From assembly GCF_029714425.1 (NCBI RefSeq), contig NZ_CP121668.1:6097501-6161500 (forward strand): a DNA stretch of 64,000 nt, read 5' to 3'. The position numbers were made by a program, and so were the translations under genes. Within the stretch, counting starts at the first letter, position 1, and each line of letters starts with the position of its first letter. Positions 3,351 to 30,297 of the stretch are shown here, piece after piece. The notes below the pieces were generated by a model. The model saw only the letters and a program-made list of their open reading frames with translations, was not told where the DNA came from and made no database searches. This DNA comes from Bradyrhizobium sp. CB2312 (GTDB taxonomy: Bacteria; Pseudomonadota; Alphaproteobacteria; Rhizobiales; Xanthobacteraceae).

Positions 3351-3368
3351 CCGCCCGCTCCGCTTGCC

Positions 3369-14321: not shown

Positions 14322-14357
14322 CTAGAGCCTGTTCCGCTTCAGCGGAATTGGCTCTAG
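14322..14357. repeat. Palindrome at the 3' end of fpr, possible terminator
   Basis: Nested inverted repeat: CTAGAGCC (14322-14329) pairs with GGCTCTAG (14350-14357), and TTCCGCT pairs with AGCGGAA inside. It includes the fpr stop codon (14354-14356), so the hairpin forms at the very end of that message. It is adjacent to the element at 14265 and may be part of the same composite repeat. There is no T-run. Confidence 0.55.
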
Positions 14358-15127
14358 CGCTCGGCAAAGGCCTTTTCGACGACGAACTGGGCCGGCTCGC
14401 CGTGATTGCCCTCAACGAAGCCGCGCTCGCCGAGCAGCACGCGGGTGTCCGCCACCAGCGCCGGGCTGCCGCAGATCATGACGCGGTCATGCGCGGCTCC
14501 CAGCACCGGCAGGCCGATATCGCTGAACAGCTTGCCCGACGTGATGAGGTCGGTGATGCGGCCGCGGTTGCGGAAGGGGTCGCGCGTCACGGTCGGGTAG
14601 TAGATCAGCTGCTCGCGGATGTATTCGCCGAGCAGCTCGTCCTGCGGCAGGTGCTCGGTGATCATCTCGCCATAGGCGAGCTCCTTCACGTGCCGGCAGC
14701 CGTGCAGGAGCACCACCTTCTCGAACCGCTCGTAGGTCTCGGGGTCCTTGATCACGCTCAGGAACGGCGCAAGGCCCGTGCCGGTGCCGATCAGGTAGAG
14801 GTTGCGACCTTCTTCCAGGTTGTCGATCACGAGCGTGCCGGTGGCCTTGCGGCTGACGATGATCTCGTCACCTTCCTTGAGGTGCTGAAGGCGCGAGGTG
14901 AGCGGGCCGTCAGGCACCTTGATCGAGAAGAATTCGAGGGTGTCCTCGTAATTGGCGCTGGCGACGCTGTATGCCCGCAGCAGGGGCTTCTCGCCGACCT
15001 TGAGCCCGATCATGGTGAACTCGCCGTTGCGGAAACGGAAGGTCGGGCTGCGGGTGGTCTTGAAGGAGAACAGCGTGTCGGTCCAGTGGTGGACGCTCAA
15101 AACGCTTTCCTGATTGAAATTGCTCAT
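14354..15127 (-). CDS. fpr: Ferredoxin--NADP+ reductase
   Basis: This 257-residue FAD enzyme of the bacterial Fpr type shows FAD-binding LLRAYSVASANYEDTLEFFSIKV (RAYSVAS, about residues 51-57), the NADP-binding GTGTGLAPFLSVIKDPE (about 114-130) and the C-terminal FVVEKAFAER. It moves electrons between NADPH and ferredoxin or flavodoxin. It diverges from the enamidase gene with a MarR-type palindrome between them, which ties it to the nicotinate island. There it could keep ferredoxin reduced for the 6-hydroxynicotinate reductase. A general housekeeping role is the alternative. Confidence 0.88.
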   Translation of the reverse strand: MSNFNQESVLSVHHWTDTLFSFKTTRSPTFRFRNGEFTMIGLKVGEKPLLRAYSVASANYEDTLEFFSIKVPDGPLTSRLQHLKEGDEIIVSRKATGTLVIDNLEEGRNLYLIGTGTGLAPFLSVIKDPETYERFEKVVLLHGCRHVKELAYGEMITEHLPQDELLGEYIREQLIYYPTVTRDPFRNRGRITDLITSGKLFSDIGLPVLGAAHDRVMICGSPALVADTRVLLGERGFVEGNHGEPAQFVVEKAFAER

Positions 15128-15192
15128 CTCACCTTCCCTGTCGCGTCAATTGCGGTTCTCGAGGCGGGCAGCTATGCGTCGTTTGTACACGA

Positions 15193-15210
15193 TCATTCGT
15201 ATACTAATGA
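15193..15210. promoter_or_regulatory. Candidate MarR-type operator between fpr and ena (site 1)
   Basis: An 18-bp palindrome, TCATTCGTATACTAATGA, has one mismatched pair around a GTATAC core. Sixteen of 18 bases match the palindrome before the hydroxynicotinate reductase gene. It lies 66 nt before fpr and 75 nt before ena, so it could control both divergent genes. Confidence 0.65.
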
Positions 15211-15284
15211 ATAATCCTGCTTGATCCCGCGGTCAAGCCTGCCCAAGATCGAAAGCGTTGCAGTTAGGAATAAGGAGCCCTTCC

Positions 15285-16481
15285 ATGGCGCATGACGCAC
15301 CCCAGGCCACCGGACCCTCGAAGCTCGTGATCCGCAATATCGGCCTGATCCTGTCCGGCGCCCTGGAAAAGCCGATCCTGGACGGCGACACCATCGTCGC
15401 CGAGAACGGCAAGATCACCGCGATCGGCCGCTTCAAGGACTGCAACGTCGAGGGCGCGACCACCATCGTCGACGCCCAGGGCACCACGGTCGCGCCCGGC
15501 CTGATCGACAGCCACGTCCACCCCGTCGCGGGCGACTGGACGCCGCGGCAGAACCAGATCAACTGGATCGACAGCTACCTCCATGGCGGCGTCACCACCA
15601 TGATCTCCGCCGGCGAAGTGCACATGCCCGGCCGGCCCCGCGACGTCGTCGGCCTCAAGGCCATGGCCGTGTTCGCCCAGCGCGCGTTCTGGACCCTGCG
15701 GCCGGGCGGCGTGAAGGTTCACGCCGGCGCGCCGGTGATCGAATGCGAGATGGTCGAGGAAGACTTCAAGGAGATGGCCGCCAACGGCGTCAAGCTGCTC
15801 GGCGAGGTTGGCCTCGGCGGCGTGAAAGACGGGCCTACCGCGCGGAAAATGGTCGGCTGGGCGCGCAAATACGGCATTCAGAGCACGATCCATACCGGTG
15901 GCCCCTCGATCCCCGGCTCCGGCCTGATCGACAAGGACGTGGTGCTGGAGGCCGACACCGACGTGGTCGGCCACATCAATGGCGGCCACACCGCCCTTCC
16001 CGACGACCAGATCCGTTGCATCTGCGAGGGCTGCAAGCGCGGCCTCGAGCTCGTGCACAACGGCAATGAGCGCTCGGCCCTATTCACGCTGCGCACCGCG
16101 CGCGAGATGGGCGATCTGCATCGGGTGATCCTCGGCACCGACGCGCCCGCTGGCTCCGGCGTGCAGCCGCTCGGCATTTTGCGCATGGTCTCGATGCTGT
16201 CCTCGCTCGGCGAGCTGCCGGCCGAGATCGCATTCTGCCTTGCCACGGGCAACACCGCGCGGATGCGACAGCTCGATTGCGGCCTCATTGAAGTGGGCCG
16301 CTCCGCCGATTTCGTCATCATGGACAAGGCGCAGCACTCGCCCGGCAAGAACATCCTGGACAGCGTCCAGCTCGGCGACCTCCCCGGCATCGGCATGACC
16401 ATCATCGACGGCATCGTGCGCACCCAGCGCAGCCGCAACACGCCGCCGGCCGGCAAGGTGCCGGAGGTGGTGGCGAAGTAG
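15285..16481 (+). CDS. ena: Enamidase (6-oxo-1,4,5,6-tetrahydronicotinate amidohydrolase) homologue
   Basis: This 398-residue amidohydrolase resembles, over its length, the Eubacterium barkeri enamidase that opens the ring of 6-oxo-1,4,5,6-tetrahydronicotinate to 2-formylglutarate. Shared stretches recalled from that enzyme are LHGGVTTMISAGEVH, GGVKVHAGAPVI, GEVGLG, HTGGPSIPGSG, VVGHINGG, GTDAPAGSGVQPLGILR and the C-terminal SRNTPPA. Metal ligands are visible: HxH at 77/79, His203, His230, Asp286. The start at 15285 has AAGGAG eight bases upstream. Its place beside a hydroxynicotinate reductase homologue supports the specific call over a generic imidazolonepropionase-like enzyme. Confidence 0.8.
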   Translation: MAHDAPQATGPSKLVIRNIGLILSGALEKPILDGDTIVAENGKITAIGRFKDCNVEGATTIVDAQGTTVAPGLIDSHVHPVAGDWTPRQNQINWIDSYLHGGVTTMISAGEVHMPGRPRDVVGLKAMAVFAQRAFWTLRPGGVKVHAGAPVIECEMVEEDFKEMAANGVKLLGEVGLGGVKDGPTARKMVGWARKYGIQSTIHTGGPSIPGSGLIDKDVVLEADTDVVGHINGGHTALPDDQIRCICEGCKRGLELVHNGNERSALFTLRTAREMGDLHRVILGTDAPAGSGVQPLGILRMVSMLSSLGELPAEIAFCLATGNTARMRQLDCGLIEVGRSADFVIMDKAQHSPGKNILDSVQLGDLPGIGMTIIDGIVRTQRSRNTPPAGKVPEVVAK

Positions 16482-16496
16482 CCAAGGAAATAGTGC

Positions 16497-16592
16497 CGTA
16501 GGGTGGGCAAAGCGACAGCGTGCCCACCAATACGTCGGCAAAGCAGTGAAAGATGGTGGGCACGGCGCAAGCGCGCCTTTGCCCACCCTACG
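16497..16592. repeat. Long inverted repeat with CGTAGGGTGGGCAAAG arms
   Basis: The arms CGTAGGGTGGGCAAAG (16497-16512) and CTTTGCCCACCCTACG (16577-16592) are perfectly complementary over 16 bp. They enclose a further GTGCCCACC/GGTGGGCAC pair. The element lies between the convergent ena and marR genes and may act as a bidirectional terminator. A related element is at 20491-20580. Confidence 0.75.
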
Positions 16593-16598
16593 AGACCT

Positions 16599-17066
16599 TC
16601 ACCGCAGCTTGTTCAACAGCGCCATCAGCGTCTCACGCTCCTTGGCATCGAGCGGCGCCAGCGTCTCGCGCGTGATCGCCAGCGCGTTCGGCGCGAGCTT
16701 TTCCGCGAGCTGCTGGCCGGCGCGCGTGAGACTCACCAGCAGCCGCCGGCCGTCCTCGGGGTCCTGACTTGTCTCGGTCAGGCCGCGCGCGGTCAGGCGG
16801 TCGATCACGCCCTTGATGGTCGCGACGTCCATCGCCGTGAGCCGTCCAAGCTGGTTCTGCGAGCACGCGCCGGTCTCGGCGAGCTTCGACAACGCCGCCC
16901 ATTGCGTCGGCGTCAGGTTGGTGCCGATGTCGCGGGAGAAGATCGCGCTGTGGCGCTGCCAGACCTGGCGCAGGATGAAGCCGACCTGCTCGTCGAGCAC
17001 GTAAGGCGACCTGAAAGGCGATTTGGCCGGCTTGACGCCCTTCTTCACCGCGACGCTTCTCGCCAT
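16599..17066 (-). CDS. MarR-family transcriptional regulator
   Basis: About 155 residues with a winged helix typical of MarR: LTPTQWAALSKLAETGACSQNQLGRLTAMDVATIKGVIDRLTARGLTETSQDPEDGRRLLVSLT. The start at 17066 (MARSVAV) follows GGGGAAGG; a GTG at 17084 overlapping the upstream stop is also possible. It is the last gene of the reductase-importer operon. In Pseudomonas the nicotinate genes are controlled by a MarR protein (NicR). The palindromes of consensus TTYGTRTACRAA in this island are plausible targets; the link is inference. Confidence 0.82.
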   Translation of the reverse strand: MARSVAVKKGVKPAKSPFRSPYVLDEQVGFILRQVWQRHSAIFSRDIGTNLTPTQWAALSKLAETGACSQNQLGRLTAMDVATIKGVIDRLTARGLTETSQDPEDGRRLLVSLTRAGQQLAEKLAPNALAITRETLAPLDAKERETLMALLNKLR

Positions 17067-17080
17067 GCCTTCCCCACCCC

Positions 17081-17785
17081 TCACAACGACAGATGCGCGT
17101 CGCGGATATCCGGACGCGCATCGAGCTCGGCCATGGTGCCGCCGAAGCAGATGCGGCCGCGCTCGATGATGTAGGCGCGATCGGAGATCAACCGCGCGAA
17201 ATGCAAATTCTGCTCGGAGACGACGATGCTGACGCCCTCCTTCTTCATGGTCAGGATGGCATCGACCATCTGCTCCACGATCTTCGGCGACAGGCCTTCC
17301 GAGGGCTCGTCCAGCAGCACCAGCGACGGATTGCCCATCAATGTGCGCGCAATCGTCAACATCTGCTGCTCGCCACCGCTCATGCGGCCGCCCGGGCGGT
17401 TCTTCATCTCGCCGAGATTGGGAAACAGCGCGAACAACTTTTCGCGCGTCCAGTGCGGCGCATTCCGCCGCTTCGGCTGCCGGCCGACTTCGAGATTTTC
17501 CTCCACCGTCAAATCAGTGAAGATGCGCCGCTCCTCCGGCACATAGCCGAGGCCCTCGCGCACGATCTCGTGGGTCGGCTTCGCCGAAACGTCCTTGCCC
17601 TCGAACGTGATGCGGCCGGAGCGCTGCGCCACGAGCCCGACGATGGACCGGAACGTCGTCGACTTGCCGGCGCCGTTGCGACCGAGCAGCGCGACGACTT
17701 CGCCCTCGCCGACCTCGAAACCGATGTCGAACAGGATATGCGCGGGGCCGTAATGGCTGTTGAGGTCCTGCACCGAGAGCTTCAT
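17081..17785 (-). CDS. Branched-chain-type ABC transporter ATPase (LivF-like)
   Basis: This 234-residue ATPase has Walker A GRNGAGKST (about residues 35-43), signature MSGGEQQ and Walker B LVLLDEPSEGLSP. It is the LivF-type partner of a hydrophobic-amino-acid-type importer. Its start overlaps the preceding ATPase stop by 4 nt. Cotranscription with the reductase operon suggests the importer carries nicotinate or a related ring acid and not leucine. Confidence 0.85.
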   Translation of the reverse strand: MKLSVQDLNSHYGPAHILFDIGFEVGEGEVVALLGRNGAGKSTTFRSIVGLVAQRSGRITFEGKDVSAKPTHEIVREGLGYVPEERRIFTDLTVEENLEVGRQPKRRNAPHWTREKLFALFPNLGEMKNRPGGRMSGGEQQMLTIARTLMGNPSLVLLDEPSEGLSPKIVEQMVDAILTMKKEGVSIVVSEQNLHFARLISDRAYIIERGRICFGGTMAELDARPDIRDAHLSL

Positions 17786-18573
17786 GCCGAGGTCCCCTCG
17801 CGATGGCGGGCATCGTAGACGAGGCCCTCGCCGAGATAGACCGCCTGCACCTGCGGATTGCCGCGCACTTCGGCCGGCGAGCCCTCGGCGATCAGCGTGC
17901 CGCGGTTGAGCACGATGATGCGGTCGGCATGCTCGAACACCACGTCCATGTCGTGCTCGGTGAAGAGCACGCCGATCGATTTCTCGCGCGCGATTTGTGC
18001 CGTGAGCCGCATGAGGTCGACGCGCTCGCGCGGCGCCATGCCGGCGGTCGGCTCGTCCATCAGCAAGAGCTTCGGCTGGTTGGCGAGCGCCACCGCAAGC
18101 TCGAGCCGCTTGAGGTCGCCATAGGCGAGCTCGCCGCAGGGCCGATCGGCATAGCCGCCCATGCCGACCAGCTCCAGCAGCCGGCCGGCCTCGCCGCGAT
18201 CGAAATTCGGCGCCGAGCCGAACAGATTGAACAGTTGCTTGCCATGCGAGATCAGCGCGACCTGCACGTTCTCGCGCACGGTCATGGTGGCGAAGGTCGC
18301 CGTGATCTGGAAAGTGCGCCCGACGCCCATACGCCAGATATCGCGCGGCTTCTTGCCGGTGGTCTCTTCGCCAAGCAGCCGGACATGACCGCTATCCGGC
18401 CTGTTCTGGCCGTTGAGCATGTCGAAGCAGGTGCTCTTGCCCGCGCCGTTCGGGCCGATCAGCGCAAGTATCTCACCGGCGCGCAGCGAGAACGAGACGC
18501 CGCGTACGGCGTGGATGCCGCCGTAGGATTTGGTCAGGCCTTCGACCGCGAGAAGTGGGGGTGCGACGCTCAT
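17782..18573 (-). CDS. Branched-chain-type ABC transporter ATPase (LivG-like)
   Basis: This 263-residue ATPase has Walker [10 protein letters not shown], Walker [15 protein letters not shown] and the C-terminal extension typical of LivG ([30 protein letters not shown]). It overlaps the permease gene by 4 nt upstream and the LivF-like gene downstream. Together with the fused permease and the binding protein it makes a complete importer. Confidence 0.85.
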
Positions 18574-20459
18574 TCGGCGGACTCGATCGGCTTGGCAAGC
18601 AAGGAGGATCCCGGCGGGGATGACTTCCGGCGGCGCTGCGCCAGCATCTCCAGCATGCCGACGATGCCCTTGGGGAAGACGACAACGATCAGCACGATGA
18701 AGCCGCCGAGCACGAGCTTCGAAAGATCGGTCTGGCTCACCAGCCAGATGTTCAATGCCTTGTAGACGATCGCGCCGATCACCGCGCCCGACACGGTCTC
18801 GACGCCGCCGAGCAGCACCATGACCAGCGCATCGACCGACAGCGAGATGCCGAGATTGTCAGGGAAGACGCTGCCCTTCAGGTACGCGAACAGCGCGCCG
18901 CCAATGCCGGCGGTGGTGCCCGCGATCACGAAGGCGGTCCACTGGATGCGCTTGGCGTTGATGCCGACCGCTTCGCTGCGCAGCAGCGAGTCGCGGGTCG
19001 CACGGAGCGCATAGCCGAACGGCGAGAACACCATGATCCGCAGCGCGATGGTGACGAGCGCGGCGACGCCGAGCGCCAGCCAGTAGAAATGCGACGGGCT
19101 CGCCGCCCACTTCTCGGGCCAGACGCCCAGAATGCCGTTGTCACCGCCCGTGACGCTCACCCATTGGAACGCGATCGACCAGACGATCTGGGCGAAGGCG
19201 AGCGTCAGCATGGCAAAATAGACGCCGGAGAGCTGCACGGCGAAGAAGCCGAACACGGCGGCACCCATGCAGCCGAGCAGCGGCCCGAGCAAGAGGCACA
19301 CGATCATCGGCAGCCCCGCCATCTTGGCGAGGAAGGCGATGCCGTAGGCGCCGAGGCCAAAATAGGCGGCGTGGCCGAACGATGCGAGCCCGCCGACCGA
19401 CATCAGGAAGTGCAAGGAGACGGCGAAGATCACGAAGATCGCGATCTCCGAGCCGACGGTGAGGAGATAATTGCCGGCAAACAGCGGCAGCATCGCCGCG
19501 AACACGACCGCGGCCAGCGCGGCCAGCCGCTCGTTCGAGGTCAGCGGCCGCCAGGGATTGACGGTGAGGCCCGGCGTCTTGCGCGCGGCCGCCTCCGGCT
19601 TGCCGAACAGGCCCCAGGGCCGGACGATCAGCACCACCGCCATCACCAGGAAGACAAGGATGATGGAGATTTTCGGAAAGATCAGGATGCCGAAGGCATT
19701 GAGCTCCGACACCAGCACGGCGGCGACGAACGCACCGACGATGCTGCCGAGGCCGCCAATCACGACCACCACGAAGACCTCGACGATGATGCGCAGGTCC
19801 ATGGCGTGATGCACGGCATCGCGCGGGATCTGGAGCGCGCCGCCGAGGGCTGCGAGAAAGACGCCGACCGCGAACACCGACGTGAACAGCCATTTTTGGT
19901 TCACGCCAAGCGCGGCCACCATGTCGCGGTCCTGCGTCGCGGCGCGTACCAGCACACCCCAGCGCGTGCGCTGGAACAACAGCCAGAGAATGCCGAGCAC
20001 GACCGGGCCGAGCACGATCAGGAACAGGTCATAGCTCGGGATGTTCTGGCCGAAGAAATCGATCGCACCCTTGAAGCCCGGCGCGCGGCGGCCGACGAGG
20101 TCGTCGGGGCCCCAGATCAGCACGACGAGATCCTCGACCATCAGGGTCAGGCCAAAGGTCGCGAGCAGCTGGAACAGTTCGGGCGCATGATAGATGCGGC
20201 GGAGCAAGACCATCTCGACCAGCACACCGATTAGCGCAACGGCCAGCGCCGCCAGCACGATGCTGCCCCAGAAGCCGAACGCGCCCGACAGCCGCTCGGT
20301 CAGCGTGAAGGCGATATAGGCGCCGATCATGTAGAAGGCGCCATGCGCGAAATTCACGATCCGCGTCACGCCAAAGATGATCGACAGGCCCGAGGCCACC
20401 AGGAACAGCGACGCTGCGCTGGCAAGACCTGTCAGAAACTGTACGACGTAAAAGGCCAT
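18570..20459 (-). CDS. Fused LivH-LivM permease of a branched-chain-type ABC importer
   Basis: This 629-residue inner-membrane protein joins both permeases in one chain. Residues about 1-290 are LivH-like (GLSIIFGVTRIVNFAHGAFYMIGAYIAF, with RAATQDRDMVAALGVN). Residues about 310-610 are LivM-like (GLASFGHAAYFGLGAYG, LRATRDSLLRSEAVGINAKRIQWTAFVIAG). The linker is near residue 290-310. In E. coli these are two proteins; fusion is seen in other bacteria. It sits in the operon between the binding protein and the ATPases. Confidence 0.87.
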   Translation of the reverse strand: MAFYVVQFLTGLASAASLFLVASGLSIIFGVTRIVNFAHGAFYMIGAYIAFTLTERLSGAFGFWGSIVLAALAVALIGVLVEMVLLRRIYHAPELFQLLATFGLTLMVEDLVVLIWGPDDLVGRRAPGFKGAIDFFGQNIPSYDLFLIVLGPVVLGILWLLFQRTRWGVLVRAATQDRDMVAALGVNQKWLFTSVFAVGVFLAALGGALQIPRDAVHHAMDLRIIVEVFVVVVIGGLGSIVGAFVAAVLVSELNAFGILIFPKISIILVFLVMAVVLIVRPWGLFGKPEAAARKTPGLTVNPWRPLTSNERLAALAAVVFAAMLPLFAGNYLLTVGSEIAIFVIFAVSLHFLMSVGGLASFGHAAYFGLGAYGIAFLAKMAGLPMIVCLLLGPLLGCMGAAVFGFFAVQLSGVYFAMLTLAFAQIVWSIAFQWVSVTGGDNGILGVWPEKWAASPSHFYWLALGVAALVTIALRIMVFSPFGYALRATRDSLLRSEAVGINAKRIQWTAFVIAGTTAGIGGALFAYLKGSVFPDNLGISLSVDALVMVLLGGVETVSGAVIGAIVYKALNIWLVSQTDLSKLVLGGFIVLIVVVFPKGIVGMLEMLAQRRRKSSPPGSSLLAKPIESAE

Positions 20460-20490
20460 CGGCGGTCCGGGTTAGTTAAGTCTGAGAAGT

Positions 20491-20580
20491 CGTAGGGTGG
20501 GTTAGCGCAGCGTAACCCACCACTTTTTCTCGTATGGTACCGAAAGCGGTGGGTTACGCCTTCGGCTAACCCACCCTACG
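20491..20580. repeat. Long inverted repeat with CGTAGGGTGG arms
   Basis: CGTAGGGTGGGTTAGC (from 20491) is complementary to GCTAACCCACCCTACG (ending 20580), with an inner GTAACCCACC/GGTGGGTTAC pair. It lies inside the operon between the binding-protein and permease genes. It could stabilise the upstream message or cut down expression of downstream genes, as intercistronic palindromes do in other bacteria. Confidence 0.75.
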
Positions 20581-20590
20581 GCAGTGGAGA

Positions 20591-21793
20591 TCAATCCTTC
20601 GGCCGCAGCTTCTCGACTTCGGCATCACCAGGCAGATAGTCCGAGCCCTTCTTGTAGGACGAATCCACCATCACGCCCTTGCCGTCCTTCAGCGCGGTCT
20701 TGCCGACATAGGCGCCGAGCGTCGACTGATGGTCGATCTTGCGGAACGTGATCTCGCCGAACGGCGACGGCATCGACAGCCCTTCCGCCGCGGCAATCAG
20801 CTTCTCCGGATCGGTCGAGCCCGCCTTGGCCAAAATCGCCGCCGCCGCCTTGATGGTCTGGTAGCCGACGATCGAGCCGAGGCGCGGATAGTCGTTGTAC
20901 TTGGCCTGGTAGGCCTTCAGGAACGCGTCGTGCTCGGGCGTCTTGATCGAGTACCAGGGATAGCCGGTGACGATCCAGCCCTCGGGCGTCTCGTCCTTGA
21001 GCGGGTCGAGATATTCGGGCTCGCCGGTCAGGAACGACACGACCTCGCGGCCCTTGAACAGACCGCGGGTGTTGCCTTCACGCACGAGCTTGACGAGGTC
21101 GGCGCCGAAGGTGACGTTGAGGATGGCTTCGGGGTTGGCGGCGGCAACCGCCTGCACCACCGGGCCCGCGTCGATCTTGCCCTGCGGCGGCCACTGCTCG
21201 TCGACCCACTGGATGTCAGGGCGCTTCTCCGACATCAGCTTCTTGAACACCGATACCGCCGACTGGCCGTATTCGTAGTTCGGCGCGATCGTCGCCCAGC
21301 GCTTGGCCGGCAGTTTTGCGGCGGCTTCCACCAGCATCGCGGCCTGCATGTAGTTCGAGGGGCGCAGGCGGAACGTGTACTTGTTGCCCTTCGCCCAGGT
21401 GACGGCGTCCGTCAGCGGCTCGGCCGCGAGGAAGAACACCTTCTTCTGGTTGGCGAAGTCGCTGACGGCCAGACCGATGTTGGACAGGAACGTGCCCGTC
21501 AGCATCGCCACGCCTTCGCTGGAGACGAGCTCATTGGCCGCAGTCTGCGCATCGGCCGGCTTGCCGCCGTCGTCCTTGGAGATCACGACGAGCTTCTTGC
21601 CGTTGATGCCGCCGGCCGCGTTGATCTCCTCGACCGCGAGCTGCCAGCCCTTGCGATAGGGCTCGGTGAACGCCGGCAGCAGCGAATAGCTGTTGATCTC
21701 GCCGATCTTGATGTCCTGCGCCATGGCCGAATGGGCCATGCCGCCGGCCAGAAGCGCGAAGGCCGCGCCGACGAAGTAATTTCTTGCTCGCAT
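20591..21793 (-). CDS. Branched-chain-type ABC transporter substrate-binding protein
   Basis: About 400 residues. The start at 21793 (MRARNYFVGAAFALLAGGMAHSAMA) follows GGAGG and gives a clean signal peptide cut before QDIKIGEINSY. It is a type I periplasmic binding protein of the LivJ/amide-sensing group: PYRKGWQLAVEEINAAGGINGKK, SKDDGGKPADAQTAANEL and YGQSAVSVFKKLMSEKRP. Context within the reductase operon makes a pyridine or aromatic acid the likely ligand. Confidence 0.87.
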   Translation of the reverse strand: MRARNYFVGAAFALLAGGMAHSAMAQDIKIGEINSYSLLPAFTEPYRKGWQLAVEEINAAGGINGKKLVVISKDDGGKPADAQTAANELVSSEGVAMLTGTFLSNIGLAVSDFANQKKVFFLAAEPLTDAVTWAKGNKYTFRLRPSNYMQAAMLVEAAAKLPAKRWATIAPNYEYGQSAVSVFKKLMSEKRPDIQWVDEQWPPQGKIDAGPVVQAVAAANPEAILNVTFGADLVKLVREGNTRGLFKGREVVSFLTGEPEYLDPLKDETPEGWIVTGYPWYSIKTPEHDAFLKAYQAKYNDYPRLGSIVGYQTIKAAAAILAKAGSTDPEKLIAAAEGLSMPSPFGEITFRKIDHQSTLGAYVGKTALKDGKGVMVDSSYKKGSDYLPGDAEVEKLRPKD

Positions 21794-21865
21794 CCCAACC
21801 TCCAGTTTTGAACTTTTTCGCCTCGAACATGTCCCGAGAGCTGTGCCCGCCCCCCGGATCATGCC

Positions 21866-22450
21866 TCATCTCAAACCGTCTTCGCCCTTCACTTCCGCAA
21901 CCGTCAGCCCGCCGACGCGCGGCAGCGGACGGCCGCTGTCTGTGACGGCGACCGCGACCATGATCTCGTTGGCGCGCGGGGCGTCGTTGATCTGCACTTC
22001 CATGCCATCGAAATGACTGCGGACGAAGGCCGCGTCCTTGTGCCCGAGCGGGATGTCCAGCGTCGTGCCGGGACCGCTGCGCTTTTTCGACGACGGGATC
22101 AGCGCCGCGCCCTTGCTCAAAACTTTCCGCACCGGCGCGCCCATCTTCGGATGAAGGATCGCGGCGGCGTGCTCCAGCTCACCATTCTCGCCGACGGCCG
22201 CGGCCTTGCCGTAGCTCTGCGCCTTCGCGCCATCGATACCCAGCGCGGCCACCGCGCGCTTCGACAAGAGCTCACCGAGCTCCTCGCCGATCGCGATCAA
22301 GGGCGAGAGATCCTCGACATATTTTCCGGCAAAGGGATTTTCGATCACGGCGATCGCGGCGGCGCGCCGCGTCGGCGGCGAGACCTGGCGGCCCATCTCC
22401 ATCTGCGTCTCTTCGACGACGGTGACGATCTTGCGGATGATCGCGCTCAT
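21866..22450 (-). CDS. 'Amino acid synthesis' family protein (DUF1185)
   Basis: This 194-residue protein belongs to the family named after an amino-acid-synthesis annotation. It is marked by AIAVIENPFAGKYVEDLSPLIAIGEELGELLSKRA, the MGAPVRKVLSKGAALIPSSKKRSGPGTTLDIPLGHKDAAFVRSHFDGMEVQI core and APRANEIMVAVAVTDSGRPLPRVGG. The biochemical role of the family is not settled. Here it is 15 nt behind the UPF0280 gene, inside the nicotinate island. A role in handling a ring-opened intermediate is possible but unproven. Confidence 0.75.
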   Translation of the reverse strand: MSAIIRKIVTVVEETQMEMGRQVSPPTRRAAAIAVIENPFAGKYVEDLSPLIAIGEELGELLSKRAVAALGIDGAKAQSYGKAAAVGENGELEHAAAILHPKMGAPVRKVLSKGAALIPSSKKRSGPGTTLDIPLGHKDAAFVRSHFDGMEVQINDAPRANEIMVAVAVTDSGRPLPRVGGLTVAEVKGEDGLR

Positions 22451-22465
22451 GTTTCGCTTCCCTGT

Positions 22466-23365
22466 TCAGGCACTGACCGCATTCTCCAGCACGAGCGGGC
22501 GCGGCCGTTGCTCTTCTATATCCTTGGTTCCGATGACAAGCATATCACCACAAAGCCTGAGCATGGCACCCTCGATCAGTCCACGATCGAATAATTGCCG
22601 TGCACATTCCGCGCCAGATTCCAGCGCAGCCGTGATCTCGTCTTGCGACAATTCACCGACGTCGCGGGTGACGAGACGTGGGCCGAGATCGCTGTCGGGC
22701 TGAAGCTCGTTCGCAGGCGTGCGCGTGATGGCGGGATGCCCGGGCAGATCGACAGCATTGGCGATGATCGTCGCCGCCGCATCGGCCTGCGACGCCGTCG
22801 CCGCCAGCACCGTCACCGCATCGGCAATGCCGAGCGAGAAGCTGCGGCCGTGGCGTCCGCTGGTCGCAATGCCCCGCACGGGATCATCCGAATCGATCCG
22901 CATGGCCCGCATCACGCCGTTCCGGTCAGGCCGGTCCATCAGGCCGACCGAGAAATGTTCGCCCGCGCCGAGGTGCAGCGCGATGTCGCCACCATTGTTG
23001 ACATAGGCCTGGTCGAGCGTCGCGACGTGAAGCATCGCGCCCAGAATTTCCTCGGCCACGCTGCCCGCCACCGCGGCCATCGGCGTGATGAAGCGATCCC
23101 AGGCGTAGGGAGTGACGGCAGCAAACATGCGCCGAGCCACCGTGCCTTCCAGCGAACACGCCGCCGGCAGCGCCGCCCGCCGTAATTCCGGCAGCTCCGC
23201 GCAGAGTTCGTCGAGAAGGCCCGTGAACCTTCGCGCCGCAGCTTCATAAGCTGCGCGCACCTCGTCCGCGTGCCCCCTCGCCTCAACGATCAGATCAATC
23301 GGTCCATCCTGCAAATGCAGCCGCCGGCCATCAGACAGCAATGCGATTTGCGGGAGCCGTGTCAT
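22466..23365 (-). CDS. UPF0280 family protein (ApbE-like fold)
   Basis: This 299-residue protein matches UPF0280: EGTVARRMFAAVTPYAWDRFITPMAAVAGSVAEEILGAM, AYVNNGGDIALHL and GIATSGRHGRSFSLGIADAVTVLAATASQADAAATIIANAVD. The last segments resemble the nucleotide-binding region of ApbE, the FAD:protein FMN transferase. Its start overlaps the reductase stop by 4 nt (ATGA), so the two are translationally coupled. A maturation role for the flavoprotein encoded upstream is a reasonable hypothesis. A direct catabolic role is the alternative. Confidence 0.8.
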   Translation of the reverse strand: MTRLPQIALLSDGRRLHLQDGPIDLIVEARGHADEVRAAYEAAARRFTGLLDELCAELPELRRAALPAACSLEGTVARRMFAAVTPYAWDRFITPMAAVAGSVAEEILGAMLHVATLDQAYVNNGGDIALHLGAGEHFSVGLMDRPDRNGVMRAMRIDSDDPVRGIATSGRHGRSFSLGIADAVTVLAATASQADAAATIIANAVDLPGHPAITRTPANELQPDSDLGPRLVTRDVGELSQDEITAALESGAECARQLFDRGLIEGAMLRLCGDMLVIGTKDIEEQRPRPLVLENAVSA

Positions 23366-24819
23366 GCCCGCGGTCCCGGAATCGGGTTCTGCCAGGGCAA
23401 CTGGCGGACGTCGTCACCGTTCTGCACCTCGGCGAGCGGCTTGACGTAATCCATGTGCCCGCCGAGCGCGGCATAGTCGGTCAGCTTCATCGTGAACTCG
23501 ATCGGCGCGACCAGCGCCGGCGTCGGCACATAGCCGAACGCCCCCGCCGGCATCTGCGTGACGTCGACCATGTAGGTGATACCGCCGCCGGGCCAGACAT
23601 AAACCGGTGCACCGCCGCTGGTGACGCGCGTGAGTGCATCCTTCACCGAGCGCGTCAGCCGCACCGGATTGTCGGTGACACCGGCGCGCAACGAGCCGCC
23701 GGCCCCCGCCATGAACAGCACCGTGCACAGCGCCGGCTCGCAATTCTCCTGGATCCGCTCGACCGAGAATTTCAGGTCGGCCGGCATCTCGGTCTCGACC
23801 GGGTTCAAGGTCTCGTCGAGCACGTAATAGGACGAATGCTCGCCGGTCGTGGAGACCATCAGCATGGTCAACCCGGCCTTCGCCTCCTTCTTGTCGAAGG
23901 GCCCGAGAATCGCCAGGGGATCGGAGATGTTGGTACCGCCCCAGCCCGTGCCGGGATCGGCGACCTGGAAATAGCGGCCGGGTGTCGAGCGCCGGCCCTT
24001 CATCTTGATGCCGGTGTCGGCGATGTCGAGCAGCTTGCCGGCCTGGTGCTCCGAGAGCACGCCGGTGATGTGGTCATCGACCACGACGACCTCGTCAACT
24101 TTGCCATGCCACTGCTTGGCGAACATGCCGATCGTCGCCGAACCGCAGCCGACGCGCATGCGCTCTTCCCTGACGCCATTGACGATCGGCGGCTGGCCGG
24201 CCTGCACCACGACCGTGGCGCCGCCGTCGATGGTGAGCTCGACCGCCTTGCAATTGGCGAGGTCCATCAACGTGTCGCAGGTGACGCGGCCCTCCTTCTT
24301 GGAGCCGCCGGTGAGATGATGCACGCCGCCGAGCGACAGCATCTGCGAGCCGTATTCACTGGTGGTGACATGGCCGACCGCCTCGCCCTGTGCGCGCACG
24401 GTCGCGGTTTCAGGGCCGAGATAGCGGTCGGTGTCGATCTTCACCTTGATGCCGCAATAGGAGAAGATGCCCTCGGTGACCACGGTCACCATGTCGACGC
24501 CATCGACCTCCGCGGAAACGATGAACGGCGCCGGCTTGTAATCGGGATAGGTCGTGCCCGCGCCGATCGCGGTGACGAAAGTGGAGGGCTCGTGGACGAT
24601 CTTGCCGTCCCAGTCTTCGGTGCGGCTAAACGGCACCAGCTTCCCGCCGTGCTCGACGGTGCGCTCCAGGATCACGTGCGGATCGACGCGGACGAGCTTG
24701 CCGTCATGGTTGGCATAGCGGTCGCAAGCGCCCGCCGCGCCCGGCTTGATATAGCACATCACCGGACAGGCATCGCAGCGGATCTTGTCGGTGGCAGCGC
24801 TCGTTGTTTCCATCACCAT
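23362..24819 (-). CDS. hnr: 6-hydroxynicotinate reductase homologue
   Basis: About 485 residues. An N-terminal iron-sulfur motif, Cys15-x2-Cys18-x3-Cys22-x9-Cys32, is followed by long segments typical of the clostridial-type 6-hydroxynicotinate reductase family (TEGIFSYCGIKVKIDTDRYLG, VGCGSATIGMFAKQWHGKVDEVVVVDDHITGVLSEHQAG, ISDPLAILGPF). The enzyme reduces 6-hydroxynicotinate to 6-oxo-1,4,5,6-tetrahydronicotinate with reduced ferredoxin. Starts at 24819 or 24813 are both possible; no good ribosome site is seen. The frame continues upstream of the operator, but that part is not protein-like. First gene of an eight-gene operon. Confidence 0.78.
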   Translation of the reverse strand: MVMETTSAATDKIRCDACPVMCYIKPGAAGACDRYANHDGKLVRVDPHVILERTVEHGGKLVPFSRTEDWDGKIVHEPSTFVTAIGAGTTYPDYKPAPFIVSAEVDGVDMVTVVTEGIFSYCGIKVKIDTDRYLGPETATVRAQGEAVGHVTTSEYGSQMLSLGGVHHLTGGSKKEGRVTCDTLMDLANCKAVELTIDGGATVVVQAGQPPIVNGVREERMRVGCGSATIGMFAKQWHGKVDEVVVVDDHITGVLSEHQAGKLLDIADTGIKMKGRRSTPGRYFQVADPGTGWGGTNISDPLAILGPFDKKEAKAGLTMLMVSTTGEHSSYYVLDETLNPVETEMPADLKFSVERIQENCEPALCTVLFMAGAGGSLRAGVTDNPVRLTRSVKDALTRVTSGGAPVYVWPGGGITYMVDVTQMPAGAFGYVPTPALVAPIEFTMKLTDYAALGGHMDYVKPLAEVQNGDDVRQLPWQNPIPGPRA

Positions 24820-24837
24820 ATGGGGCCAGGAGACGTT

Positions 24838-24857
24838 ATCATTCGTATACGAACGAT
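24838..24857. promoter_or_regulatory. Candidate MarR-type operator before hnr (site 2)
   Basis: The 20-bp sequence ATCATTCGTATACGAACGAT is palindromic with one mismatched pair; its inner TTCGTATACGAA is perfect. It lies about 20 bp before the hnr start. It shares TCATTCGTATAC with the site between fpr and ena. Confidence 0.7.
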
Positions 24858-24993
24858 GTTGCGCGCGGTCCCCCGGCGCTGTCAAGCACCGGTGCAGCGC
24901 AAAAGATGCCGCTGCCGCATAAAACCTCATTTGCCTAGCCGCGCTGTCCATAAACAAGGCAACCGCGCTGCAGTGCGGCATGCACGGCTTGCA

Positions 24994-25009
24994 CGTTTGT
25001 GTACAAACG
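24994..25009. promoter_or_regulatory. Candidate operator before nicA (site 3)
   Basis: CGTTTGT-GT-ACAAACG is an inverted repeat with 7-bp arms. Its core TTTGTGTACAAA fits the consensus TTYGTRTACRAA shared with the sites at 15193 and 24838. It lies about 55 bp before nicA. Confidence 0.6.
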
Positions 25010-25062
25010 GTATCGTCGCGACATAGATTTGGCAGCACTTCGCCGAGCGCTTGGAAACGAGG

Positions 25063-25545
25063 ATGACGCAGACACCGATCCGCCTCACCGTGAACGGAGG
25101 GATCCACGAGGTCACTGCGGCGCGGGACACGCCGTTGCTCTACGTGCTGCGCAACGATCTCGCGCTCAACGGTCCGAAGTACGGTTGCGGTCTCGGTGAA
25201 TGCGGCACCTGTACTGTCCTGATCGACGGCGCCGCCGCGCGCTCGTGCGTGATTCCGGTCGGCGGCTGCACCGGGCGCGACATCGTGACGCTCGAAGGGC
25301 TCGGCACCCGCGACAAGCCTGACGTGGTGCAGCAGGCCTTCATCGACGAGCAGGCCGCGCAATGCGGTTACTGCCTCAACGGCATGATCATGACCACCAA
25401 GGCGCTGCTTGCGATCAATCCGCGGCCGACCGAGCAGGAGGCGCTGGCGGCGCTGCGCTACAATCTCTGCCGTTGCGGCACCCATGTCGAAATTCTGCAC
25501 GCCGTGATGCGCGCCTCCGGCCAGCTCACCGAGGCCGAAGATTGA
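25063..25545 (+). CDS. nicA: Nicotinate dehydrogenase small subunit, [2Fe-2S] protein (NicA-like)
   Basis: This 160-residue protein has the xanthine-oxidase-type two-cluster pattern: Cys42-x4-Cys47-x2-Cys50 with Cys62, then Cys101-x2-Cys104 and Cys136-x-Cys138 (LRYNLCRCGTH). It passes electrons from the molybdenum site to the cytochrome part of its partner. The ATG at 25063 is preferred; a TTG at 25051 would add four residues. Its TGA overlaps the ATG of the large subunit (TGATG). Other two-subunit hydroxylases with haem domains, such as isoquinoline-1-oxidoreductase types, are possible; context favours nicotinate. Confidence 0.82.
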   Translation: MTQTPIRLTVNGGIHEVTAARDTPLLYVLRNDLALNGPKYGCGLGECGTCTVLIDGAAARSCVIPVGGCTGRDIVTLEGLGTRDKPDVVQQAFIDEQAAQCGYCLNGMIMTTKALLAINPRPTEQEALAALRYNLCRCGTHVEILHAVMRASGQLTEAED

Positions 25546-28500
25546 TGGCCTTCCCTGCCTCGAACGGAGCTGAGCGGCCATCGGGTTCGCTCGTCGTCGT
25601 CCGCACCGTGGACGAGATCACATCCGAGACGTTCGTCCGCATCACCGCGGACGGCTCGGTCAGCGCCTATAACGGTCATGTCGATCTCGGCACCGGCATC
25701 CGCACCGCGCTCGGCCAGATCGTCGCCGAAGAGCTAGATGTGTCCTTTGCGCGCGTCGTCGTCGTGCTCGGCGACACCGCCGTGGTGCCGAACCAGGGCG
25801 CGACGATTGCCAGCGAAACCATCCAGATCACCGCCGTGCCCCTGCGCAAGGCCGCAGCCCAGGCGCGGCACTTCCTGATCGCGCGCGCGGCCGAGCGGCT
25901 GGAGCTGCCGGCGGCTGAGCTGAAGATCGAGGACGGTCTCGTCCGCGGGCATAATCGCAGCGTCAGCTACGGGGAGTTGATCGGCGGCGAAGAGATCCGG
26001 CTCGAGCTTGCCGACGACGTTGAGGTCAAGCCTGTCGGCGATTACGCCATCGTCGGCCAATCCGTCCCGCGCGTCGACCTGCCCGCCAAGGCCACGTGCG
26101 AATTGACTTTCGTGCACGATATCCGCCTGCCCGGCATGCTGCACGGCCGCGTGGTGCGCCCGCCCTATGCCGGCGTCGATGCCGGCCCGTTCGTCGGCAC
26201 CAGCCTGATCGCCGTCGATGAATCGTCCGTCCGAGATATTCCCGGCATCGTGGCCGTGGTGCACATCGGTGATTTCGTCGGCGTCGTTGCCGAGCGCGAG
26301 GAAAATGCGATCCGCGCAGCCGAGCAGCTCAAGGTGAGCTGGAGGCCGACGCCTGCCCTCACCGACCTTGCCGACGTCGAGACCGCGCTGCGGGCCAATC
26401 CGTCGACGCCCCGGACGCTGATCGACAAGGGCGACGTCGACAAGGCGCTATCAGGCGCGGCGAAGCCGATGCAGCGCACCTACGTCTGGCCGTATCAGAT
26501 GCACGCCTCGATCGGCCCGTCCTGCGCCGTCGCCGATGTCCAGGACGGCAATATCCGGGTCTGGTCGGGCACGCAGAACCCGCACCTCCTCCGCGCCGAT
26601 CTCGCGCTGCTGATCGAGCGTCCCGAGAGCGAGATCGAGGTCATCCGCCTCGAGGCCGCCGGCTGCTACGGCCGCAACTGCGCCGACGATGTCACCGCCG
26701 ACGCGCTGCTGCTCTCGCGCGCGGTCGGCCGTCCCGTCCGTGTCCAGCTGACACGCGAGCAGGAGCACACCTGGGAGCCCAAGGGCACCGCGCAACTCAT
26801 CGACGTCAATGGCGGCCTCGATGCCGACGGCGGCATTGCCGGTTACGATCTCGCCACGCGCTATCCCTCGAATGCCGCACCGACGCTCGCACTGCTGCTG
26901 ACTGGGCGCATTCCATCCGAGCCCGCCGTGCTCCAGATGGGCGACCGCACCGCGATCCCGCCTTACGATTACGACAATATGCGCGTGGTCGCCCACGACA
27001 TGCCGCCGATCGTGCGCGCCTCCTGGTTTCGTGGAGTCTCGGCGCTGCCGAACACCTTTGCGCATGAATCCTATATCGACGAGGCCGCGACCGAGGCCGG
27101 CGTCGATCCCATCGAATACCGCCTGCGCTATCTGAAGGACCCGCGCGCGGTCGATCTCGTCAATGCGGTCGCCGAACGCGCGGGCTGGACGCCGCGCCCA
27201 ATGCGCGAGGAGAAGGACGGCGAGATCGTGCACGGGCGCGGTTTTGCTTACGCGCTCTACGTCCACAGCAAGTTTCCCGGCTATGGCGCGGCGTGGTCGG
27301 CCTGGATCGCCGACGTCGCGGTGAACAAGACCACCGGCGATGTCAGCGTGACGCGCGTCGTCGCGGGACAGGACTCCGGACTGATGATCAATCCGGACGG
27401 CGTGCGCCACCAGATCCACGGCAACGTCATCCAGTCCACCAGCCGCGCGCTGATGGAGGAGGTCTCGTTCGAGCGCGGCGCGGTGGCGGCGCGCGAATGG
27501 GGCGCCTATCCGATCATCCCCTTCCCCGATGTTCCCAAGATCGACGTGTTGATGCTGCCGCGGCCGGACCAGCCGCCGCTCGGCGTCGGCGAGTCCGCAT
27601 CGGTGCCCAGCGCAGCCGCGATTGCGAACGCCATCTTCGATGCCACCGGCGTTCGCTTTCGCGAGCCGCCATTCACGCCGGAGCGCATCCTGAAGGGCTT
27701 GCACGGCGAGACATCGCCCGTGCCGCAGGCCCTGCCCCCGCCCGCTGCGCCAAAGCCGTCGCGCATCTGGGAAATTCCCTTCGCCAAAAGCGTTGGCATT
27801 GTCGCAACGATCGCGGCGGTCTGCACCGCCGCCATCGGCATCGGCGCGGCGCTGCTACCCGGCCGCGCCATCGCGCCGATCGCGCGGCCCGATGCATCGG
27901 TCTACTCCGCCGCGACCATCGCGCGCGGCCAGCAGCTTGCGGCGCTGGGCAATTGCGCGGAGTGCCACACCAGCTTCAATGGCGTGCTCAACGCCGGCGG
28001 CCGTGCGCTGGAGACGCCGTTCGGCACAATCTATTCAACCAACATCACACCCGACGTCGAGACTGGCATCGGCGCCTGGTCCTATCCCGCCTTCGAGCGC
28101 GCGATGCGCGACGGACTGCATCGAGACGGACGGCAGCTCTACCCCGCCTTCCCGTACACGCATTTTGCCAGGACCAACGATGCCGACATGCAGGCGCTCT
28201 ACGCCTATCTGATGGCGCAACCAGCGGTGCGCGCGACGCGGCCTGCGAACACGCTCGCCTTCCCATTCAATCTCCGCCCGCTGCTGGCCGGATGGAACGC
28301 GCTGTTCCATCAAGCAAAAGAGTTCAAGCCTGATCCCGCCAAATCGGAGGCATGGAATCGCGGCGCCTATCTCGTCGAGAGTCTCGGCCATTGCAGCGGC
28401 TGCCATTCGCCGCGCAATGCGCTCGGCGCCGAGCAGCGCAATGCTTATCTCGCCGGCGGCTTCGCCGAGGGCTGGGAGGCCCCGCCGCTGACCTCGCTCT

Positions 28501-29063
28501 CGCACGCGCCGATCCCCTGGAGCGAGGACGAGCTGTTCGCTTATTTGCGCACCGGCCATTCGCGTTATCACGGCGTCGCGGCCGGCCCGATGGCGCCGAT
28601 CGTGAAGGACCTCAAGGCCCTGCCCGACCAGGATATCCGCGCGATGGCGGTCTATCTCAACTCGTTCAACGACACCGCGGACGAAGTGCCCGCACTGGCG
28701 GCGAAGCTCGAGAGCGCGACACAAGTCAGCGTCACCTCGTCCCCCGGCGCACGGCTTTACCAGGGCGCCTGCGCCGTCTGCCACGAGGTCGGCGGCCTGC
28801 CGCTGTTCGGCAGCCGGCCCTCGCTCGCGCTCAACAGCAACCTTCACAGTGCGAAGCCGGACAATCTCGTGCAGGTGATCCTGCACGGCATCATTGATCC
28901 CGTGTCGAGCGATCTCGGCTACATGCCCGCGTTCAGAAACAGCATGAGCGACACGCAGGTCGAGGAGCTCGTCAGCTTCCTGCGCGGGCAGTTTGCACCG
29001 GACAAGCCGGCCTGGACCGGCGTGCGGGAGACGATCGCGCGGGTGCGGGCGTCGGTGCACTAG
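25545..29063 (+). CDS. nicB: Nicotinate dehydrogenase large subunit: molybdopterin domain fused to three c-haem domains (NicB-like)
   Basis: This 1172-residue protein, close to the length of P. putida NicB, hydroxylates an N-heterocycle at the carbon next to nitrogen. Residues 1-735 are a molybdopterin aldehyde-oxidase-type domain ending with the active-site loop GVGESAS (Glu near 683). A membrane anchor follows at about 740-765. Three cytochrome c domains carry CAECH (about 804), CSGCH (about 950) and CAVCH (about 1076). Electrons would leave to the respiratory chain, so the reaction is aerobic or respiration-linked. Translation is coupled to nicA. Confidence 0.83.
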   Translation: MAFPASNGAERPSGSLVVVRTVDEITSETFVRITADGSVSAYNGHVDLGTGIRTALGQIVAEELDVSFARVVVVLGDTAVVPNQGATIASETIQITAVPLRKAAAQARHFLIARAAERLELPAAELKIEDGLVRGHNRSVSYGELIGGEEIRLELADDVEVKPVGDYAIVGQSVPRVDLPAKATCELTFVHDIRLPGMLHGRVVRPPYAGVDAGPFVGTSLIAVDESSVRDIPGIVAVVHIGDFVGVVAEREENAIRAAEQLKVSWRPTPALTDLADVETALRANPSTPRTLIDKGDVDKALSGAAKPMQRTYVWPYQMHASIGPSCAVADVQDGNIRVWSGTQNPHLLRADLALLIERPESEIEVIRLEAAGCYGRNCADDVTADALLLSRAVGRPVRVQLTREQEHTWEPKGTAQLIDVNGGLDADGGIAGYDLATRYPSNAAPTLALLLTGRIPSEPAVLQMGDRTAIPPYDYDNMRVVAHDMPPIVRASWFRGVSALPNTFAHESYIDEAATEAGVDPIEYRLRYLKDPRAVDLVNAVAERAGWTPRPMREEKDGEIVHGRGFAYALYVHSKFPGYGAAWSAWIADVAVNKTTGDVSVTRVVAGQDSGLMINPDGVRHQIHGNVIQSTSRALMEEVSFERGAVAAREWGAYPIIPFPDVPKIDVLMLPRPDQPPLGVGESASVPSAAAIANAIFDATGVRFREPPFTPERILKGLHGETSPVPQALPPPAAPKPSRIWEIPFAKSVGIVATIAAVCTAAIGIGAALLPGRAIAPIARPDASVYSAATIARGQQLAALGNCAECHTSFNGVLNAGGRALETPFGTIYSTNITPDVETGIGAWSYPAFERAMRDGLHRDGRQLYPAFPYTHFARTNDADMQALYAYLMAQPAVRATRPANTLAFPFNLRPLLAGWNALFHQAKEFKPDPAKSEAWNRGAYLVESLGHCSGCHSPRNALGAEQRNAYLAGGFAEGWEAPPLTSLSHAPIPWSEDELFAYLRTGHSRYHGVAAGPMAPIVKDLKALPDQDIRAMAVYLNSFNDTADEVPALAAKLESATQVSVTSSPGARLYQGACAVCHEVGGLPLFGSRPSLALNSNLHSAKPDNLVQVILHGIIDPVSSDLGYMPAFRNSMSDTQVEELVSFLRGQFAPDKPAWTGVRETIARVRASVH

Positions 29064-29318: not shown

Positions 29319-30287
29319 TCACCTGTGCTTCTTCATCTCCACCGGCGGGGTGCCGTGGGTGTGGAAGGACTCGATCGTCTTCAAGCCCCAGGCCTGGCCC
29401 TTCTTGCGCTCCTCTTCCGTCCACACGATCGGCTTCCAGTCGGGCGCAAGGATGAGGCGGGCGCCGGCGTTGGCGACCTCGACGCGGTTGCCGCCGGGCT
29501 CGTAGACATAGAGGAAGAAGGTCTGCTGGATCGCGTGCTTGTGCGGTCCGGTCTCGATATGCACGCCATTCTCCAGGAAGATGTCGGCGGCGCGAAGAAT
29601 CTCCTCGCGGCTGTCGAGCGCGTAGGTGACGTGGTGAAAGCGGCCGGGCGTGCCGGAATGGTCGAGCGAATAGGCGAAGTCGTAGCTTTTGTTCGACATC
29701 GTCAGCCACATCGCGGCCTCGCGGCCATCATTGAGCACGATCTGCTCGGTCAGGCGGCAGCCGAGATAATTCTCGAAGAACTCGCGGTTGGCCTTGATGT
29801 CGACGGCGAGGCAGTTGAGATGATCGAGCCGGCGGACATTGACGCCGCGCGCGGGAAAACGTTGCGCCTGGTTCTTCAGCGCAGGCTTCAGCTCGGGCGG
29901 CGCCTGATACCACTCGGTCTCGTAATAGAGCTCGACGATGTGGCCGTCGGGGTCGCGGCAGCGGAAGGTCGGCCCCTGCCCCATGTCGCCGTCGATCCAG
30001 CCGATGTCGAAGCCAGAGCCCTTCAGCGCGGCGACGCGGCGCTCCAGCGCCTGCTGGCTGCGCGCGCGCAGCGCCATATGCTCCATGCCTGAGGTCTTCG
30101 ATGCCGTGAGCTTGAGCGAATAGCGCTCGTAATCGTCCCAGCCCCGCAAGTACACCGACTCGCCCTTTTGCCCGCTCACCGTCATGCCCATGACGTCGAC
30201 GAAGAATTTCAGGCTCTCGTCGGGCTTCGGCGTCAGCAGTTCCATGTGGCCGAGATGGGCGAGATCGAGGATCGGTTCGGGCTGCAT
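29319..30287 (-). CDS. Extradiol ring-cleavage dioxygenase of the VOC type (catechol 2,3-dioxygenase family)
   Basis: This 322-residue protein has two glyoxalase-like halves. The iron ligands are His156 (RRLDHLNCL), His219 (GRFHHVTYA) and Glu270 (NRVEVANAG), spaced as in catechol/biphenyl-diol 2,3-dioxygenases. It would open a catecholic ring next to the hydroxyls using Fe(II) and O2. The start at 30287 follows GGAGGA, and the open frame upstream of it is not protein-like. It is a single-gene unit. Its promoter carries the same operator as the tetR-ligI operon, suggesting it supplies that pathway. Confidence 0.85.
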   Translation of the reverse strand: MQPEPILDLAHLGHMELLTPKPDESLKFFVDVMGMTVSGQKGESVYLRGWDDYERYSLKLTASKTSGMEHMALRARSQQALERRVAALKGSGFDIGWIDGDMGQGPTFRCRDPDGHIVELYYETEWYQAPPELKPALKNQAQRFPARGVNVRRLDHLNCLAVDIKANREFFENYLGCRLTEQIVLNDGREAAMWLTMSNKSYDFAYSLDHSGTPGRFHHVTYALDSREEILRAADIFLENGVHIETGPHKHAIQQTFFLYVYEPGGNRVEVANAGARLILAPDWKPIVWTEEERKKGQAWGLKTIESFHTHGTPPVEMKKHR

Positions 30288-30297
30288 CTTGTCCTCC

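Follow-up and report, generated by a model that had tools for sequence, protein, structure and literature searches.

Putative island for aerobic nicotinate catabolism

The window, a 64,000-nucleotide stretch of the 9.78-Mb genome of Bradyrhizobium sp. CB2312, carries at positions 14354–29063 a gene island that very probably serves aerobic nicotinate catabolism via the tetrahydro-oxonicotinate route. Its genes follow the order ferredoxin-NADP reductase (FNR; minus strand), enamidase (ena; plus), MarR regulator, LivF, LivG, LivHM, binding protein, DUF1185, UPF0280 and 6-hydroxynicotinate reductase (hnr; all minus), and the hydroxylase genes nicA and nicB (plus) (Table 1). The genes named in a preliminary description of this DNA were all present as open frames within these limits, and Pfam and NCBIfam scans agreed with the list; that description had left unmentioned the DUF1185/AA_synth and UPF0280 genes, which sit between the importer and hnr, and a catechol 2,3-dioxygenase-like gene next to the island. 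The cluster is not a chance grouping, since the set was found again in 80 hnr loci (L049–L128), with the gene order retained among close relatives and altered by rearrangement in those less closely related.

In the proposed route, the ABC importer would take up nicotinate, and NicA/NicB would hydroxylate it to 6-hydroxynicotinate, passing the electrons via three c haems to the respiratory chain. Hnr would reduce the ring to 1,4,5,6-tetrahydro-6-oxonicotinate with electrons from NADPH through FNR and probably ferredoxin, and the enamidase would hydrolyse this enamide to 2-formylglutarate and ammonia, with further processing of 2-formylglutarate expected via glutarate. Synthesis or function of Hnr would depend on UPF0280, most likely in the role of a maturation or cofactor protein. 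DUF1185 would act in a later or side step, and the MarR protein would govern both divergent promoter regions. The sequence of intermediates from nicotinate to 2-formylglutarate had been put forward in the preliminary description and draws good support from homology and conserved clustering as well as from the published cluster and growth of strain SG-6C.

According to Shettigar 2012 (PMC3511419), strain SG-6C grows on nicotinate and 6-hydroxynicotinate, the latter appearing transiently from nicotinate, and mineralises 6-chloronicotinate, a neonicotinoid insecticide breakdown product, through the reductive route. That paper lists such a cluster for Azorhizobium ORS571, B. japonicum USDA110, R. 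palustris HaA2 and SG-6C, so that the cluster type of the window is not new, and the earlier suggestion that the gene set was little known does not hold, given its publication for four strains. Likewise, the mixed respiratory and reductive character is a described feature of aerobic alphaproteobacteria and no surprise. The island clearly illustrates the reductive aerobic nicotinate route, and its comparison with relatives raises two questions: does UPF0280 serve an iron-sulfur ring reductase as maturation or partner protein, and has an ATP-dependent lactamase taken the place of the enamidase in some of the bacteria that carry hnr?

Assignment of the island proteins

The enamidase homologue matched the Eubacterium barkeri enamidase (PDB 2VUN) over residues 21–403 of 407, as its motifs had suggested; the true ena start may lie a few codons downstream of 15258. 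The strength of this match counts, because one paper treats KpiC, a relative of enamidase at 28% identity, as a dioxygenase (PMC7356986). The hydroxylase was found as described earlier, with a [2Fe-2S] subunit and a molybdopterin subunit whose three CxxCH motifs lie at residues 805, 951 and 1077 of the 1,173-residue frame starting at 25542. The importer comprises the binding protein together with the fused LivHM, LivG and LivF, the latter three named by inspection of their open frames, and the MarR and FNR assignments also held.

The four-Cys N-terminal motif reported for Hnr was invariant (Cys 15, 18, 22 and 32) in alignments of 18 and 59 sequences, and the protein was 98% and 96% identical to its counterparts in Bradyrhizobium sp. 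cir1 and Bradyrhizobium sp. USDA 4472, respectively. Its start is best put at 24819; a longer frame to 25581 would overlap nicA. Hnr matched no Pfam or NCBIfam family at E≤0.001 (one weak Pfam match had E=0.011), and a sequence search of the PDB found no credible relative, only two unrelated capsid chains at E ~0.25. A PDB fold search with a five-model prediction from 18 homologues likewise gave 0 matches at E≤0.001; with this result and a mean pLDDT of 70.4, Hnr was not assigned to a known fold. Its identity here rests on the names of its relatives and the Cys motif, the 42% identity to E. barkeri Hnr being the figure given in the published comparison for the SG-6C protein (PMC3511419). Within the window's own family, 44 of 149 genomes, in 14 of 47 genera, gave an hnr match at E≤1e-50, so that the gene is patchily spread even there.

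Comparison of hnr loci

A phylum sample of 398 Pseudomonadota genomes was scored for hnr at E≤1e-10. In addition, genome contigs were scanned with a profile of the 18-protein Hnr alignment, and the best 80 of 592 confirmed places (L049–L128), among which no clostridial title occurred, were used. These 80 loci, together with 22 stretches of ~20 kb from 22 of the 32 hnr-bearing phylum-sample genomes (the remaining 10 belong to the window's own genus), made up 102 loci, in which two pairs represent the same gene reached twice (L093/L175 and L112/L176). Gene presence was scored by tblastn at E≤1e-20. Because contig ends cut many of the 102, a separate tally was made for the 77 loci that span 19.8 kb or more. 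Genes with internal TGA codons (Ena of G505, UPF0280 of G311, HyuA and hnr of G284) and the hnr of G164, which is split over two frames, were counted as present; lineages of phylum-sample genomes are given by group codes only.

UPF0280 was counted in 100 of the 102 loci, followed by the DUF1185 type AAs (78), MarR (75), LivHM (73), the DUF1185 type AAs2 (53), NicB (53), Ena (50), a second hydroxylase termed FusMo (40), FNR (39), pncB (17), a catechol 2,3-dioxygenase-like gene (C23O; 16) and HyuA (12). The corresponding figures for the 77 long loci were 75 for UPF0280, 46 for Ena, 42 for NicB, 30 for FusMo and 12 for HyuA. A wider proposal built on this comparison, whose chances we consider evenly balanced, is that the aerobic core consists of hnr and a dedicated UPF0280 essential for Hnr, around which modules for ring hydrolysis (the metal-dependent Ena or an ATP-dependent HyuA/HyuB lactamase) and for hydroxylation (cytochrome- or FAD-linked) are exchanged. 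On this view, HyuAB would represent a novel hydrolase for tetrahydro-oxonicotinate, and UPF0280 a novel type of protein for enzyme maturation, which would also explain COG2122 in homocysteine synthesis.

UPF0280 as companion of hnr

In the phylum sample, hnr and UPF0280 (each at E≤1e-10) occurred in the same 32 genomes, from 15 genera and nine families (Fisher p = 6e-48, kinship ignored); UPF0280 scoring was limited to a handful of top candidates in each genome (up to 5), so that a very divergent copy in an hnr-less genome could escape. Where both lay in one stretch they were always on the same strand (100/100), and in 98 cases no more than 510 bases separated them. The loci lacking a nearby UPF0280 (L090 and L111) carry it elsewhere in the genome (the test was positive in 6/6 genomes, including four added as extras). 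We infer that UPF0280, which we take to be the COG2122 family, is a maturation or partner protein for Hnr, leaving open which of the two.

A narrower possibility, which we regard as rather doubtful, is that UPF0280 acts as a covalent flavin transferase for Hnr and not as a general maturation or partner protein. The E. barkeri Hnr is reported, in work by Alhapel of 2006, to bear covalent flavin, and both the constant pairing with hnr and a distant likeness to ApbE, with conserved NxGGD, ATSG and ADxxAT stretches in an alignment of 99 UPF0280 proteins, would suit such a role. However, the score against ApbE PF02424 was 21.9 bits, under the cut-off of 25.6, and the HxxDPxTG motif, the flavin-binding loop of ApbE, is not conserved in these 99 proteins. 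Moreover, the Thr of the Hnr motif GCGSAT is replaced by Ala in 2 of 18 homologues, and this residue was discarded as a universal covalent flavin site. P0064, a database protein of 764 residues with Hnr and UPF0280 in one frame, was left unused as evidence of fusion, being a single sequence whose junction resembles a frame slip.

The proposed general role of UPF0280 as a maturation or partner protein has a parallel in Desulfovibrio, where COG2122 is required with DUF39 for homocysteine synthesis, and where its likeness to ApbE seems not to extend to the flavin-binding region (PMC5764234). There, too, an ApbE-like protein of unknown function is needed with a partner enzyme, which here would be Hnr.

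Possible exchange of the ring-opening enzyme

Ena (E≤1e-40) was present in 20 of the 398 genomes, namely in 18 of the 32 with hnr and in 2 of the 366 without it (those copies 41–42% identical). Genes for HyuA and HyuB stand after the DUF1185 genes in the ena-less loci L124, L126 and L128, whose hosts include Rhizobium and Agrobacterium. Some HyuA relative at E≤1e-60 occurred in 30 of the 32 hnr-bearing genomes, the window's genome having two at 35–38% identity; HyuA at 61–80% identity was found in 16, the next best standing at 45%. A threshold of E≤1e-185, chosen after this gap had been seen and lying just above the 45% hits, retained 16 of 398 genomes, all bearing hnr, and none of the 366 hnr-less ones. 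On this basis, the 32 genomes comprised 16 with Ena only, 14 with HyuA only, 2 with both and 0 with neither (Fisher p = 5e-7, ignoring kinship).

In both genomes that hold the two enzymes (G268 and G338), Ena and HyuA each lie away from hnr, and at no locus (0/102) were they found together. The second-site ena of these genomes (L189 and L190) is accompanied by a DUF1185 pair, with no hnr in the 14 kb around. Neither gene was found within the stretch in 19 of the 77 long loci; 8 of these, the ones covered by a genome-wide check, belong to phylum-sample genomes with one or both elsewhere. HyuAB away from the hnr locus is divergent to an FNR gene (product 49–51% identical to that of the window) in 6 of 8 places, as is ena in the window; the six are not independent because all belong to one family (f3).

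The PDB relatives of HyuA/HyuB were N-methylhydantoinase and 5-oxoprolinase chains, and the caprolactamase CapA and CapB models NF050156 and NF050157 gave 483.8 and 326.8 bits, respectively, both under cut-offs of 1000. HyuA/HyuB of the hnr relatives thus share a superfamily with CapAB and N-methylhydantoinase HyuAB, and HyuAB is absent from the window's cluster. Being a six-ring lactam, tetrahydro-oxonicotinate suits a lactamase from the HyuAB superfamily, and we infer from these patterns that an ATP-dependent, caprolactamase-like HyuA/HyuB may replace the enamidase in some of the bacteria with hnr. Literature searches found no paper describing a HyuAB variant in nicotinate breakdown. On a quickly built tree of Hnr with 101 rows (34 unlabelled), a minimum of three changes was needed for the Ena/Hyu label and of seven for the hydroxylase label; these counts are rough, as long branches meet in the tree.

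DUF1185 types followed a related pattern, AAs being present in 50 of 50 Ena loci and AAs2 only in 13 of 18 loci of HyuA genomes, which kinship may explain. Tandem DUF1185 paralogues occur in L080, L088, L112 and others. At a guess, DUF1185 could take part in an enamine, tautomer or decarboxylation step; PMC2954203 suggests no more than amino-acid metabolism.

Exchange of the hydroxylase and electron supply

The hydroxylase is exchanged among hnr loci between a cytochrome type and an FAD type. The latter, FusMo, consists of an FAD subunit and a fused [2Fe-2S]–molybdopterin protein, exemplified by L112:6231-9941, where the fused protein has 915 residues. NicB and FusMo never occurred in one locus (0/102); one NicB count, in L111, rests on just 27–28% identity. 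As to the reductive step, the same genome has a second FNR (G000:C1:9475324-9476094), 64% identical to that of the cluster. The cluster FNR is therefore an extra copy, consistent with a dedicated electron supply, and is likely the NADPH-side electron source for Hnr.

Putative operator

The 11-base pattern TYGTRYACRAA matched six times in the window versus 0.15 expected, and since two places match on both strands, these correspond to four places: the interval between hnr and nicA holds two, that between FNR and ena holds one, and the last is inside nicB. A common inverted repeat hence sits in both divergent promoter regions, and the MarR protein would be the binder of this TTYGTRYACRAA inverted repeat. 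The 12-base form had 106 sites in the 1.93 Mb of the 102 loci (a count without a chance figure), of which 103 lie upstream of a cluster gene at a distance of up to 400 bases, two of them preceding hyuA. The repeat stands upstream of hnr in 44 loci, nearly all near relatives of the window's copy (L049–L086), so the evidence for the operator covers that lineage and not distant ones.

Weighing of the nicotinate route

Several observations weigh against this reading of the island. Substrate specificity would rest on neighbour genes and literature, and the best-scoring solved relatives of the hydroxylase in a PDB search were aldehyde, glucose, fructose and alcohol dehydrogenase subunits, its likeness to NicB being one of architecture. 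Further, the adjacent catechol 2,3-dioxygenase-like gene could indicate a different ring-cleavage route, one of the four motif places sits inside nicB (26109), and the repeat is present in just 53 of the 102 loci.

Aldehyde and sugar dehydrogenase subunits as the top solved chains for NicB, and a known chemistry that leaves DUF1185 and UPF0280 unexplained, would be compatible with a cluster that degrades some other N-heterocycle (another pyridine carboxylate or a cyclic amide), for which Hnr and Ena had been recruited to an analogous reduction and hydrolysis. We consider this improbable in view of the enamidase match to 2VUN, the growth data of SG-6C, and the position of pncB. This gene, identified as nicotinate phosphoribosyltransferase by two NCBIfam models above their cut-offs, adjoins nicB in 16 of 102 loci, which supports nicotinate as the substrate, and lies ~5 kb from the hydroxylase in one further locus. 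An oxidative ring opening after hydroxylation of nicotinate, aided by the dioxygenase-like gene that adjoins nicB outside the island (29319–30404; TIGR03211 370.6 bits, cut-off 320.2), is very improbable, as that gene occurs in only 16 of 102 loci, all from close Bradyrhizobium, against 100 for UPF0280 with hnr, and the window also holds, at another place, a LigK-type aldolase gene that suggests ordinary aromatic catabolism. With its 16 of 102 loci, the dioxygenase-like gene was rejected as part of the route.

The tetrahydro-oxonicotinate route also agrees with the Azorhizobium caulinodans/Bradyrhizobiaceae cluster, from which no essential difference was seen in a comparison that did not proceed gene by gene against the published figure; the tetrahydro-oxonicotinate chemistry of Azorhizobium was reportedly treated by Kitts in 1989 and 1992. 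The E. barkeri nicotinate fermentation cluster, said to have been described by Alhapel in 2006, shares Hnr and enamidase homologues with the island, but its hydroxylase is reportedly of the Se/FAD type instead of the c-haem type, and its metabolism is fermentative, whereas that of the island would be respiratory. In contrast, the nic cluster of Pseudomonas putida has a two-subunit NicA/NicB-type c-haem hydroxylase alike in architecture, yet is said, after Jimenez in 2008, to proceed by oxidative NicC/X/D/F steps where the island would open the ring reductively. Among the NCBIfam matches listed for 20 window proteins, none was named NicC, NicX, NicD or NicF, no dedicated search having been made.

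Feature coordinates and neighbouring genes

Table 1. Features of the island in window coordinates.
Feature	Position	Strand	Evidence
Ferredoxin(flavodoxin)-NADP reductase, FNR	14354..15127	-	NF008178 162.7 bits, under cut-off 390
Operator-like site TCGTGTACAAA, FNR/ena intergenic	15182..15192	-	Pattern match
ena, enamidase	15258..16481	+	PDB 2VUN, E=1.9e-109, query residues 21-403
MarR-family regulator	16599..17084	-	PF01047
LivF-like ABC ATPase	17081..17785	-	Open frame, conserved in hnr loci; named by inspection
LivG-like ABC ATPase	17782..18573	-	Open frame, conserved in hnr loci; named by inspection
Fused LivH-LivM permease	18570..20459	-	Open frame, conserved in hnr loci; named by inspection
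Periplasmic binding protein of importer	20591..21862	-	PF13458 E=7.7e-70
DUF1185/AA_synth protein	21866..22450	-	PF06684 E=3.1e-75; PDB 2qtp, 3byq
UPF0280 ApbE-like protein	22466..23365	-	NF003322 430.1 bits, cut-off 290
hnr, 6-hydroxynicotinate reductase	23362..24819	-	Relatives so named by several sources, hypothetical protein by others
Inverted repeat TTCGTATACGAA, putative operator upstream of hnr	24842..24853	.	Pattern match
Inverted repeat TTTGTGTACAAA, putative operator between hnr and nicA	24996..25007	.	Pattern match
nicA-like [2Fe-2S] subunit	25051..25545	+	PF01799, PF00111
nicB-like molybdopterin subunit, three c-type haem sites	25542..29063	+	PF02738, PF20256, cytochrome c domains

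Outside the island, aromatic-acid catabolism genes at positions 1567–7009 encode a 4-carboxy-4-hydroxy-2-oxoadipate aldolase and a DctA transporter, each above a cut-off, along with an amidohydrolase that resembles 4-sulfomuconolactone hydrolase and scored under its cut-off. A HerA-like ATPase, under the cut-offs of the HerA models, is encoded at 30712–32475.
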